A stretch of DNA of 52,785 bases. Origin: Reyranella massiliensis 521. GTDB lineage: Bacteria > Pseudomonadota > Alphaproteobacteria > Reyranellales > Reyranellaceae. Positions 3,664 through 16,015 of the stretch are shown one piece after another; position 1 is the first letter of the stretch, and each line of letters begins with the position of its first letter. The translations under genes were made by a program, and so were the position numbers. The stretch spans positions 1 through 52,785 of the forward strand of contig CAMARK010000025.1 in the NCBI GenBank assembly GCA_945860205.1, read 5' to 3'. A model generated the notes under the pieces. It saw nothing but the letters and a program-made list of their open reading frames with translations, did not search any database and was not told where the DNA came from.

Positions 3664-3692
3664 AACATAGAGGGCAGGTTCCGGAGGGTCAA
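3664..3692 (-). promoter_or_regulatory. Sigma70-type promoter of ilvB-ilvN-lysE
   Basis: Read on the minus strand there is TTGACC (3687-3692), a 17-base spacer, and TATGTT (3664-3669). It lies between the end of miaA at 3719 and the ilvB start at 3610, correctly placed to drive ilvBN. Assigned by similarity to the consensus only. Confidence 0.6.
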
Positions 3693-11765: not shown

Positions 11766-12350
11766 CTAGGCTCGCTTCTTGCGCCGGGCCGCCTGCTTCC
11801 TGGGTTGCCACTTCCCAGTCATGCCGTGCACGCCGATCATCGAGCCTGCGACCAGCTCGAGGGCGAGGAAGCGGCGTTCCTCGACCCAGCCGGGGAGCTG
11901 GATGTTGAGGGCGAGGTCGCGGCGGAAGCCGAACTGATTGTAGTACTCGGGGTCGCCGACCAGGATGATCCGGCTGTGGCCCTGCATCCTGGACTGCGCC
12001 ATGGCATGCCACATCAGCGCCTTGCCGTAGCCCAGCCCGCGCAGCTCGGGCGAGATCGCAAGCGGCCCCAGCAGGACCGCGGGCCACTGCTCGTTGACCA
12101 CGATCGGCCAGTTGCGGATCGACGCCACCATGCGGTCCTTCTGGTCGATGGCGACGAAGCACAGTTCGCGAATCGGCGGCACGTCCTCGCGCAGGCGATA
12201 GACCGTCTTCTGCTGGCGATCCGGGCCGAACGCCGCCTCGTTCATCGCCTCGACGGCGGCGGCATCGCGCGGCCGCTCGCGCAGCAGCCGCAGGCGGCCA
12301 GGATCGCGGATCGCGACCGCGGCATGGGCAGCGCGAACGGCCCTCGCCAT
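11766..12350 (-). CDS. GNAT family N-acetyltransferase
   Basis: The 194-residue protein has the GNAT core. LLGPLAISPELRGLGYGKALMWHAM contains the Q/RxxGxG/A acetyl-CoA loop as RGLGYG, followed by RIILVGDPEYYNQFGFRR, the usual last motif. It ends in a basic tail (KQAARRKKRA). The acceptor is unknown; this branch resembles the small-molecule/YhbS-like acetyltransferases. Its ATG overlaps the thyX stop (ATGA), so it is probably translated from the thyX mRNA. Confidence 0.85.
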   Translation of the reverse strand: MARAVRAAHAAVAIRDPGRLRLLRERPRDAAAVEAMNEAAFGPDRQQKTVYRLREDVPPIRELCFVAIDQKDRMVASIRNWPIVVNEQWPAVLLGPLAISPELRGLGYGKALMWHAMAQSRMQGHSRIILVGDPEYYNQFGFRRDLALNIQLPGWVEERRFLALELVAGSMIGVHGMTGKWQPRKQAARRKKRA

Positions 12351-13285
12351 CAGCCTTGCCCGAGCGCCGTCATCAGCTCGCGCCATTCGCGGGCGCTCAT
12401 GCCACTCGACTTCTGGTCGACCTTCTCGCCCGCCAGCAGGCGTTTCACGATGGCGAGGCCGGTCTTCGAGAGATGAGCACCGCCCATGCGGTATTCCATG
12501 AAGGCGTCGTGGCTGATCGGGCACCAGCGCTTCAGCGTGTCGATCATGACGTCGGCATAGACGCGAATCTCGTACTGGGCGTGGGCGTCGGCACGCAGCG
12601 ACAGGAAATGCATGAGATTGTGGAGGTTCGTCTTCCAGTACCACTGGGTATAGAAGGCGAGCGACAGGTTCATGCGCGCAAGCTCGCGCGCCAGGCCGGA
12701 GCGCTCGGGATCGAGCGGCTCGCCGGCCTCGCCCTCGTTCAGCATCTCCATATAGTGCTCGTAAACCAGCTCGGAATCCTTCTTGAGGATGTCAAAGACG
12801 CGCTCGGCTTCCTTGCCGGCCAGCACCGCGTCGCGTCCCTGCCGGTTGGCCTTGCTCTGGGCCGCAAGATGCTCGGCCTTGGGAACGTAGAATTCGTTGT
12901 CGAGGATCGAGTAGCGCGCGGAATATTCGTTCACGTTGGCGGTGCGATGGCGAATCCACTGCCGCGCCACGAAGATCGGCAGCTTCACGTGATATTTGAT
13001 TTCGCACATCTCGAACGGCGTCGTGTGACGGTGCCGGATGAGATAGTTGATCAGCCCGCGGTCCTCGCTGACCTTCTTGGTGCCCCGGCCATAGCTGACA
13101 CGCGCCGCCTGCACGACGGCGGCGTCGTCGCCCATGTAGTCGACGACGCGGACGAAGCCGTGATCGAGCACCGGCAGGGCCTGGTAGAGGATCTCCTCCA
13201 GCGCCGGTGCGATCGGCCGAAGGGTCGGCTGCGCGCCGGCCCGCGTCTGATCGATTTCGGCCTGCTGGTCGGTGGAGAGGGGCAT
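12350..13285 (-). CDS. thyX: Flavin-dependent thymidylate synthase
   Basis: The 311-residue protein carries the ThyX signature [15 protein letters not shown] from residue 112, and RHRHTTPFE at 84-92, which contact FAD and dUMP. ThyX methylates dUMP using methylene-tetrahydrofolate and NADPH through FAD, replacing ThyA. It is on the long side for the family because of a ~40-residue N-terminal extension. It is divergent from the tmRNA gene, with 134 bases between them, and is followed by a coupled GNAT gene. Confidence 0.95.
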
Positions 13286-13350
13286 TTTTCGGTCGTCCTT
13301 TGTTGGCCGCGGACTCTATGGGCGGCGGGCCGGCGCTACCATGGGGAAAT

Positions 13351-13378
13351 CACGAGGCCCAAGGCACGAGGCCCAAGG
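13351..13378 (+). repeat. Perfect 14-bp tandem duplication upstream of ssrA
   Basis: CACGAGGCCCAAGG occurs twice in a row (13351-13364 and 13365-13378), six bases before the presumed -35 box of the tmRNA gene. It may be a slippage duplication or two binding sites for one factor acting on ssrA and/or the divergent thyX. Confidence 0.6.
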
Positions 13379-13384
13379 GATGCC

Positions 13385-13413
13385 TTCAAATTGCCGGGCG
13401 AAGCGCCTATATA
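13385..13413 (+). promoter_or_regulatory. Promoter of the tmRNA gene
   Basis: TTCAAA (13385-13390), a 17-base spacer and TATATA (13408-13413), with the start expected near 13420. That is exactly where a GNRA-capped hairpin (stem 13420-13424 with 13429-13433, GAAA loop) opens the acceptor piece. The position agrees with the RNA ends inferred from structure. Confidence 0.6.
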
Positions 13414-13417
13414 AGAA

Positions 13418-13735
13418 CTGTCGGGAAACCGACTATGGCGATAAACGCCGCGTGACATAAGCGTTTCGGACCCGGGGGCGGTACCCGGCGCCTCCACCAT
13501 TTCTCTCCGTTCCCATTCAGGGCGCGGAATCGATGGGGGCGAAACAGGATCGACGAGCGTGGTAAAGGCGCGGTTTTTGCCCGGTATGGTTCCGCCGCAA
13601 CGGACCACACACAAGTGCTAACGATAACACCGTTACACTCGCTGCTGCCGCCTAAACAGCGGACGTAAGCGCGGTCCGGGGGGCACCGGGCAACAGAAGC
13701 CCCCCACTTTCCTTCCGCTGCAATGCCCGCTATTG
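13418..13735 (+). ncRNA. ssrA: tmRNA, circularly permuted two-piece type
   Basis: The acceptor part comes first. After a small GAAA-loop hairpin it contains a T-arm (stem CCGGG/CCCGG) and CGCCTCC followed by an encoded CCA ending at 13499. A 35-base segment (13500-13534), presumably removed, separates it from the coding part, which starts GGGGGCG at 13535 and pairs with CGCCTCC to form the acceptor stem. A tmRNA-like D-region (GGATCGACG) follows. The tag frame at 13617-13655 reads ANDNTVTLAAAA then stop. A 7-bp hairpin (13678-13684 with 13699-13705) and a hairpin near 13721-13740 probably belong to the pseudoknot region. The 3' end is approximate. tmRNA with SmpB rescues stalled ribosomes and tags the nascent chain for proteolysis. 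Confidence 0.93.
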
Positions 13736-13758
13736 GCATCGTTGACTCTCCCATCACC

Positions 13759-13791
13759 CGGGCCGATGGTCCGCAGAGAATTTTTCCGACA
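13759..13791 (+). terminator. Possible weak terminator between ssrA and sspB
   Basis: CGGGCC-GAT-GGTCCG forms a 6-bp stem including one G-U pair, followed after seven bases by TTTTT at 13781-13785. The spacing between stem and T-run is longer than ideal, so read-through into sspB, whose start is at 13796, is plausible. Confidence 0.3.
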
Positions 13792-13795
13792 GGCC

Positions 13796-14335
13796 ATGAA
13801 CGATCGCTTTCAATACGACGCTCTCGTCGACGACGCGCTGCGCAGCGTCGTGCGCCGCGTGCTGACGCAAGTGGCGGAAAAAGGCCTGCCCGGCTCCCAC
13901 CATTTCTACATCAGCTTCCGCAGCACTGATCCCGGCGTCGAACTGCCTGACTATCTGCTTGCCAAGTATCCGGAAGAGATGACGATCGTGCTCCAGCACC
14001 AGTACTGGGACCTCGTCATCGGCGAGGAATCGTTCGAGGTGACGGTGAGCTTCAACAAGCTGCAGGAGCACATCAAGGTGCCGTTCGCCGCGCTGTCGGC
14101 CTTCGTCGACCCCTCGGTGCGCTTCGGCCTGCAATTCGACCGCAAGGACAATGCGGCGGGCGAGAAGCCCGAAGCCGCGGCCGTGGCGCCGACGCCCCTG
14201 CCGGCACCCGAGAAGCGGCCGGCCCAGGCCGGTCCGGCCGGAGACGAGGACAAGCCCGCGGATGCCGCAGCCGAGGCCAAGCCCGAGGACGCCGCCTCCA
14301 AGATCGTCAAGCTCGACAGCTTCCGAAAGAAGTAG
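13796..14335 (+). CDS. sspB: SspB, ClpXP adaptor for ssrA-tagged proteins (alpha type)
   Basis: The 179-residue protein has the SspB fold region at residues 1-115 (YDALVDDALRSVVRRVL, PEEMTIVLQHQYWDL, VPFAALSAFVDPSVRFGLQF). An Ala/Pro/Glu-rich flexible linker follows, then the C-terminal IVKLDSFRKK that matches the ClpX-binding tail of alpha-type SspB. It tethers ssrA-tagged proteins to the ClpX N-domain for degradation. ATG at 13796 fits the usual N terminus; an in-frame ATG at 13766 would add ten residues. It lies directly downstream of ssrA, so tag and adaptor are encoded side by side. Fumarase follows 63 bases on. Confidence 0.92.
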   Translation: MNDRFQYDALVDDALRSVVRRVLTQVAEKGLPGSHHFYISFRSTDPGVELPDYLLAKYPEEMTIVLQHQYWDLVIGEESFEVTVSFNKLQEHIKVPFAALSAFVDPSVRFGLQFDRKDNAAGEKPEAAAVAPTPLPAPEKRPAQAGPAGDEDKPADAAAEAKPEDAASKIVKLDSFRKK

Positions 14336-14398
14336 ATAGACGCCGCAACGCGGCTGCGGCAGGGATGCCGGCGCCGAGCGCAGTGGCCAGGAGAGACC

Positions 14399-16015
14399 AT
14401 GCCCGAATTCCAGTTCCAGCAGATGTTCCCGAGCGGCCCGGACACCACGCCCTACCGCAAGCTCAGCTCCGATTTCGTCGGCACCACGACGTTCAACGGC
14501 CGCGAGGTCCTCACCGTCGATCCGGCGGGCCTCACCCTGCTGACGGCGGCCGCCTTCCACGACATCTCGCATCTGCTGCGGCCGGGCCATCTGGCGCAGC
14601 TGCGCGCGATCCTGGACGACGGCGAGGCCTCGGCCAACGACAAGTACGTGGCGCTCGAGCTGCTGAAGAACGCCAACATCTCGGCCGGCGGCGTGCTGCC
14701 GATGTGCCAGGACACCGGCACGGCGATCGTGATGGGCAAGAAGGGCCAGGCGGTGTGGACCGGCGGCGGCGACGAGGCGGCGATCGCCAACGGCGTCTAC
14801 AAGACCTACACCGAGACCAACCTCCGCTATTCGCAGGTCTCGCCGCTGTCGATGTTCAAGGAAGTGCAGACCGGCACCAACCTGCCGGCGCAGATCGACA
14901 TCTACGCCACCGACGGCGATGCCTACAAATTCCTGTTCATCGCCAAGGGCGGCGGCTCGGCCAACAAGACCTACCTGCACCAGCAGACGCCGGCGGTGCT
15001 GAACGAGGCAGCACTTCTGAAATTCCTCGACACCCAGATCCGCACCCTGGGTACGGCGGCCTGCCCGCCCTACCACCTCGCCATCGTGGTCGGCGGCACC
15101 TCGGCCGAGATGAACCTCAAGACGGTGAAGCTCGCCTCCACCCGCTACCTCGACGACCTGCCGAGCGAAGGCAACGACAAGGGCGTGGCCATCCGCGACC
15201 GCGAGATGGAGAAGAAGGTGCTGGAGCTCACGCGCCAGATGGGCATCGGCGCCCAGTTCGGCGGCAAGTATTTCTGTCACGACGTGCGCGTGATCCGCAT
15301 CGCCCGCCACGGCGCCTCGGTGCCCATCGGCATCGGCGTCTCCTGCTCGGCCGACCGCCAGGCCATGGGCAAGATCACCAAGGAAGGGATCTTCCTCGAA
15401 CAGCTCGAGCACAATCCGGCGCACTACCTGCCAGACATCGAACCGCGGCAGCTTTCCGGCGACGTCGTGTCGGTCGACCTCGACAAAGGCATGGCACACA
15501 CGTTATCGATCCTGACCAGGCATCCGGTGAAGACGCGCGTGAACCTCACGGGCACGCTGATCGTGGCGCGCGATTCGGCGCACGCGAAGCTCAAGGAGCG
15601 TCTCGACCGCGGCGAGGACCTGCCCGACTATTTCAAGCAGTTCCCAGTCTATTACGCCGGCCCGGCCAAAACGCCCACGGGCATGGCTTCAGGCTCGTTC
15701 GGCCCGACCACCGCCGGCCGCATGGATTCCTACGTCGATCTCTTCCAGGCCAATGGCGGCTCGATGGTCATGCTGGCCAAGGGCAACCGCAGCAGGCAGG
15801 TCGTCGACGCCTGCAAGAAGCACAAGGGCTTCTATCTCGGCTCGATCGGCGGCCCGGCGGCGATCCTGGCGCAGGACGTCATCAAGAAGGTCGAGGTGCT
15901 GGAGTATCCGGAGCTCGGCATGGAAGCGATCTGGCGCATCCAGGTCGAGAACTTCCCGGCCTTTATCATCACCGACGACAAGGGCAACGATTTCTTCAGC
16001 GACCTGAAGATCTAG
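14399..16015 (+). CDS. fumA: Class I (iron-sulfur) fumarate hydratase
   Basis: The 538-residue protein is of the fused FumA/FumB type. The N-terminal alpha part contains [11 protein letters not shown] and [16 protein letters not shown] with cluster cysteines, and [11 protein letters not shown] adds another. The C-terminal beta part has [26 protein letters not shown]. It interconverts fumarate and malate in the TCA cycle with an oxygen-sensitive [4Fe-4S] cluster. CAGGAG lies seven bases before the ATG. It is followed by a strong bidirectional terminator. It may also be read from the sspB transcript, as nothing between them looks like a terminator. Confidence 0.95.

Follow-up and report, generated by a model that had tools for sequence, protein, structure and literature searches.

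SspB hands ssrA-tagged proteins to ClpXP, and a stretch of the genome of Reyranella massiliensis 521 (52,785 nucleotides, the whole of which is called the window here) raises the question of whether the writer of the tag and its reader, encoded one after the other, belong together in inheritance and in expression. The reading that we prefer, with a probability of roughly 60% for the account as a whole, is a conserved two-gene locus with a tmRNA promoter, partial read-through and a separate sspB promoter in Reyranella. On this account, the tmRNA would write the degradation tag and the same-strand gene downstream would supply the SspB-alpha adaptor that delivers proteins with this tag to ClpXP. 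The tmRNA precursor would begin at its own sigma-70-type promoter and then be cut into acceptor and coding pieces, some polymerase would probably continue into sspB, and in Reyranella a separate promoter-like box would probably be the source of most sspB mRNA, as its conservation suggests. All pieces of the locus are of known kinds. Their arrangement in the window is as follows.

12350 to 13285, minus strand: thyX, flavin-dependent thymidylate synthase (PF02511, E 9.5e-57), divergent and upstream of the tmRNA gene.
13385 to 13413, plus strand: tmRNA promoter read from the sequence, -35 TTCAAA at 13385-13390, 17 bases, -10 TATATA at 13408-13413.
13418 to 13499 (5' end approximate), plus strand: acceptor piece with its CCACCA end, from the RF01849 and RF04321 alignments and the sequence.
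13500 to 13534, plus strand: intervening segment, poorly conserved in the seven-locus alignment and a loop region of the model.
13535 to 13708 (3' end approximate), plus strand: coding piece of the tmRNA, from the RF01849 alignment.
13617 to 13655, plus strand: tag frame ANDNTVTLAAAA and stop, from ARAGORN.
13669 to 13705, plus strand: 3' H-type pseudoknot with AACAGAA loop, paired by eye, the loop motif being present in relatives.
13742 to 13770, plus strand: putative sspB promoter, TTGACTCT at 13742-13749, a 17-base spacer after TTGACT and a weak -10-like GATGGT at 13765-13770.
13796 to 14335, plus strand: sspB (SspB-alpha), adaptor for ssrA-tagged proteins, 179 amino acids (PF04386; phmmer to 2nys, 2qas and 2qaz).
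14399 to 16015, plus strand: class I fumarase (PF05681 and PF05683), 63 bases 3' of sspB.

The covariance model RF01849 matched positions 13381-13708 of the plus strand with 258 bits (E 6e-74, gathering score 50) over model positions 1-355, and this was the single match across the 210-contig genome. ARAGORN called a permuted tmRNA at 13407-13746, with the acceptor before the coding piece and a tag frame with a hydrophobic tail, as befits a member of this family. When the sequence itself was read, the acceptor piece with its CCA end spanned about 13418-13499 and the coding piece started at 13535. A permuted two-piece alphaproteobacterial tmRNA at this locus is confirmed. The original prediction had placed the ssrA gene at 13418 to about 13735; the gene is real, but the conserved RNA ends near 13708 according to RF01849. 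The AACAGAA loop was found in 129 of 131 tmRNA genes, the exceptions being a variant (G047) and a gene that is cut off (G124). Upstream, TTCAAA and TATAT of the tmRNA promoter were invariant across seven aligned loci, and a two-block promoter model built on 130 tmRNA genes returned CTTTAA and CTATAT with a spacing of mostly 17. In permuted tmRNA precursors the intervening segment is excised, which is expected here as well. A G-U pair at the third position of the acceptor stem is an alanine identity element, and such a pair is possible by eye in this RNA. Processing into two RNAs and trans-translation are established for the family and would be expected of the window tmRNA through its membership.

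The product of the downstream gene matched PF04386 with 153.3 bits (E 7.1e-45, cut-off 27) over profile positions 2-155 of 156, and no other protein of the genome matched this profile. It was also similar by phmmer to three PDB sequences (2nys, 2qas and 2qaz), which we take to be SspB proteins of Caulobacter and Agrobacterium. The identification of 13796-14335 as sspB was thus upheld. Reyranella massiliensis and R. soli were among the named records nearest to the window SspB. As predicted from relatives with solved structures, this protein would bind the ssrA tag and ClpX and speed up degradation. Both smpB and clpX were present on contigs other than that of the tmRNA, so these partners exist in the genome and smpB is not a neighbour of the tmRNA gene.

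The conservation of the pair was surveyed in a set of genomes sampled evenly across the class, mostly one per family, with a tmRNA search that covered 142 genomes from 139 genera. Positions for both the tmRNA gene and sspB were obtained in 125 genomes of the class. Of these 125, 85 had the tmRNA gene upstream of sspB in the same orientation at a distance of 300 bases or less, and 91 had it within 1 kb. Elsewhere the tmRNA gene was upstream by 301-1000 bases (6 genomes), 1-10 kb (8) or more (2), followed sspB on its strand (1), was encoded on the opposite strand (2) or lay on a different contig (21). At least three of the 21 different-contig genomes (G045, G080 and G124) are uninformative, with the tmRNA at or near a contig end; without them the counts become 85/122 and 91/122, other contig breaks having been only partly checked. 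Excluded from the 125-genome count were the sub-cut-off tmRNA hits of G083 and G058, the equally sub-cut-off second hits of G026, G109 and G134, and also the second tmRNA hit of G096, even though it was above the cut-off. A second set consisted of 80 named loci, which are biased as the best matches to the SspB query. Here the pair was found within 600 bases in 66 loci, with the tmRNA 1.1-2.2 kb upstream in four, undetected within the locus in eight, and with ends too close to judge in two. One of the eight loci without a detected tmRNA (L071) still has, 191 bases ahead of sspB, the loop motif of the tmRNA.

The genes flanking the pair were much less constant. Of the named loci with the genes adjacent, 53 extend for more than 3 kb to either side; when these were searched by tblastn with the window proteins, nine had fumarase within 3 kb downstream and eight had thyX no more than 2.5 kb upstream, a search that an unrelated fumarase would escape. 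Because these outer neighbours turn over, the pair is conserved beyond its neighbourhood, and thyX and fumarase are outside it. The physical adjacency of ssrA and sspB, for which the original prediction had proposed a survey across alphaproteobacteria, therefore holds well beyond this contig. We conclude that ssrA-sspB is a conserved and probably functional gene pair across the class, and we infer from its persistence amid changing neighbours that selection may keep the tag and its reader together. On the other hand, between a quarter and a third of genomes lacked the adjacency, and the breaks were dispersed on a weak tmRNA tree (29 changes versus a shuffled mean of 27.7), so it is not essential.

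Several observations concern the places where the pair is broken or missing. In 16 genomes without a close sspB, the open reading frames 3' of the tmRNA (the only features compared) mostly differed and no single inserted element was seen, and two of these regions (G027 and G039) had a similar cation-efflux-like frame by eye. Extra copies of the AACAGA loop were present downstream of the tmRNA in L244 (G004), L250 (G012), L249 (G119) and L251 (G008), the nearest 20-81 bases away, and suggest a duplication or an inserted element at the 3' end of the gene; the copy in the A+T-rich G008 may be chance. In one Bradyrhizobium locus (L093), what seems to be left of a tmRNA, some 160 bases ahead of the sspB at 3687, is just its last 3' bases, which looks like a separation of the two genes by an element (by eye). 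Neither tmRNA (RF01849) nor sspB was found in four genomes that are 92-100% complete (G187, G180, G198 and G231); as the genes are adjacent, one assembly gap could remove both.

The tag itself also varied with the presence of the adaptor gene. Of 124 genomes with sspB, all from the 142-genome set alone, 120 had the motif A-N-x-N at any position of the tag, versus 7 of 17 without sspB (Fisher p 2.6e-8, kinship ignored), the 17 being those of 36 sspB-less genomes that had a tmRNA above the cut-off. Among genomes of at most 2.0 Mb, the corresponding counts were 41/45 and 6/16 (p 5.6e-5, kinship likewise ignored). Tags were taken from ARAGORN or otherwise from a candidate-frame rule, with two that the caller missed (G089 and G119) added by hand. 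On the weak tmRNA tree the sspB-less genomes fell into ten groups, five of which had at least one member without the motif; of the other five groups, four were single genomes from families with sspB-bearing members. Among the sspB-less genomes are incomplete assemblies whose sisters have sspB, an independent-pairs test restricted to supported branches comprised only four pairs and had no power, and four genomes with sspB lack the motif. We regard the association as a lead only. A writer-reader unit under joint selection, in which the adaptor reads A-N-x-N and the motif is kept with sspB and decays after its loss, is a tentative proposal to which we give somewhat less than even odds. If the pattern holds on a good tree, genomes alone would reveal the tag residues that an adaptor constrains. 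In six genomes (G136, G110, G055, G134, G085 and G141) the called tag contains at least two repeats resembling A-N-x-N, which may mean a pair of adaptor sites in each tag or a wrongly placed resume codon.

By operon criteria, the tmRNA gene and sspB share a strand, are separated by an 87-base spacer and have no plus-strand terminator between them by consensus scan. This spacer had been put at 60 bases, a figure that needs correction because the conserved RNA ends near 13708. A weak terminator had likewise been placed between the genes. The consensus scan of 12800-15200 detected none on the plus strand between tmRNA and sspB, and its two terminator-like sites were both on the opposite strand and no commoner than in shuffles. 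The sole G+C-rich stem read ahead of sspB is the 3' pseudoknot of the tmRNA itself, which is followed by CACTTTCCTTCC. Because this pseudoknot comes without a full U-tract, some read-through into sspB would be expected, and a stop without a U-tract or via Rho may also act before sspB. A stable RNA hairpin in the spacer was rejected, since the 87 bases folded no better than shuffles (z 0.98).

Transcription of sspB from a promoter of its own is suggested in Reyranella by a box in the spacer. The sequence TTGACTCT was invariant in the spacers of all seven aligned close relatives (the window, L063, L064, L065, L067, G066 and G280), and 16 bases past TTGACT stood CGATG in six loci or CGACG in L065, the bases in between being variable. 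This spacing was read by eye in L064 and L065, and L068 and G186 (failed motif search) and L066 (start too near a contig end) were left out of the alignment. The longest invariant run, of eight bases, exceeded that in column shuffles (permutation p 5e-5, seven loci). Because the box is invariant at constant spacing in 7/7 loci, we consider it likely to be a putative -35 with a weak -10, that is, a separate sspB promoter in this genus.

Two wider interpretations of the box were rejected. Control by GcrA/CcrM through the GACTC within TTGACTCT was discarded, as this genome yielded no match to GcrA (PF07750) in a search whose control was positive in Caulobacter and, oddly, also in Sulfolobus. GANTC was not enriched in the sspB spacers of the whole-genome set (14/64, shuffled mean 18.4), and was enriched in those of the named set (30/61, mean 20.0), which is rich in related Bradyrhizobium and Methylobacterium. 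TTGAC as a class-wide sspB promoter was also dismissed for want of enrichment in the whole-genome set (7/64, shuffled mean 6.5). Together with a loose -10, TTGAC was rare and above chance (3/64, mean 0.74; named set 4/61, mean 0.54), the window and G066 being two of the three whole-genome-set cases.

Outside Reyranella, a promoter model trained on tmRNA promoters, which recovers 95/130 of those same promoters at p 0.05, matched 9 of 55 sspB spacers at this threshold (2.75 expected, binomial p 0.0015). Since these matches exceed chance, sspB probably has its own promoter in some families, and a tmRNA-like one probably precedes a minority of sspB genes. In three Bradyrhizobium-type loci without a tmRNA by the model (L071, L093 and L103), a common promoter-like stretch was seen by eye before sspB, with CTGACC or similar, about 17 bases, and TAGCAT or similar.

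The strongest competitor of the mixed reading is that the two genes are transcribed independently, in an old gene order with no link in expression, where the pseudoknot or Rho stops the polymerase and sspB has its own promoter. The box conserved in seven loci, the excess of promoter-like sites in sspB spacers and the promoter-like sequences of Bradyrhizobium-type loci without a detected neighbouring tmRNA all agree with it, and the tmRNA of S. meliloti was read, in PMC2245857, as ending in a two-hairpin terminator without a U-stretch. However, it does not account for the pair staying while flanking genes turn over, nor for the 10 to 16 of 85 genomes in which there is hardly room for a promoter and leader past the pseudoknot. 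Specifically, the sspB start lay no more than 45 bases from the AACAGAA loop in 16/85 adjacent genomes and no more than 60 bases from it in 23/85 when the ATG nearest to the conserved domain, or else GTG or TTG, was taken; if the start furthest downstream was used instead, whatever its codon, these counts were 10/85 and 20/85. Because a promoter and leader hardly fit in such spacers, sspB is likely to be co-transcribed with the tmRNA in these species or to be transcribed from a promoter inside the tmRNA. We therefore consider fully independent transcription an unlikely, though serious, alternative.

The bases past the pseudoknot pointed in the same direction in G+C-rich genomes. In flanks of at least 50% G+C (55 genomes with a close sspB versus 17 without), the best T count per 8 bases past the loop was lower where sspB was close (difference -1.33, GC-stratified permutation p 0.001; T runs p 0.033), and no U-tract difference between adjacent and non-adjacent genomes was observed in flanks below 50% G+C. 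Over all G+C contents, the stratified values were p 0.028 for the T count, 0.11 for the T run and 0.17 for the T excess over background, and runs of at least four T did not differ (p 0.28). This comparison was exploratory, several measures having been tried; it used 128 of 131 genomes (G047, G080 and G124 dropped), and its non-adjacent group includes six genomes at 301-1000 bases and six without sspB.

The opposite extreme, obligate co-transcription of sspB with the tmRNA in this genus and no promoter of its own, is improbable. It would agree with the consensus scan, in which neither a standard sigma-70 promoter nor a plus-strand terminator was found within 12800-15200, and with the TTGACTCT region, which was not significant when the promoter model scored the window sequence alone (p 0.77), but it would leave the invariant eight bases at constant spacing in 7/7 aligned loci without a role. 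An adjacency due to chance, or one that arose by accident on this contig, has nothing in its favour beyond the quarter to third of genomes lacking the pair and is refuted by the presence of the pair in 85/125 genomes of the class and 66/80 named loci.

We thus return to the mixed reading, in which sspB is likely transcribed both by read-through and from its own promoter. The co-expression that had been suggested as possible is partly supported by the lack of a plus-strand terminator, the short spacers of some families and the weaker U-tracts of G+C-rich genomes (exploratory), but in Reyranella-type loci the conserved box looks like a separate sspB promoter. The original prediction had named a strong stop before sspB with a separate promoter, and no conservation in relatives, as what would speak against it; no strong stop was found and conservation is clear. 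On these grounds a transcriptional link of tmRNA and sspB is plausible. The gene order suggests that one locus may balance the supply of the tag against its reading, and short-spacer species offer direct test cases for whether a stable RNA and an mRNA are co-transcribed.

Among the matches listed by full-text literature searches, no paper stating the ssrA-sspB adjacency was found. The closest of those listed was PMC2245857, which reports that both genes flanking the tmRNA are conserved in the alphaproteobacteria compared there; its section 11 leaves these genes unnamed and calls a functional link uncertain.

Compared with known systems, the window tmRNA resembles the alphaproteobacterial two-piece tmRNA (RF01849; Caulobacter ssrA) in its full-length match, permuted order, CCA acceptor and ANDN tag start; its tag ends in LAAAA, and nothing else unusual was noted. 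Likewise, its SspB shares the family profile and conserved core residues of SspB-alpha (PF04386; 2qas, 2qaz and 2nys), whereas the C-terminal linker, compared by sequence, is variable, acidic and rich in alanine and proline. Gene order points to the proteolytic adaptor as a protein partner that alphaproteobacteria keep beside tmRNA. As in the ssrA-smpB pair of many bacteria, for which PMC4131195 surveyed gene neighbourhoods, a tmRNA gene is kept beside a protein partner of the same pathway; here, in contrast, this partner is a proteolytic adaptor encoded downstream, and smpB is on another contig.
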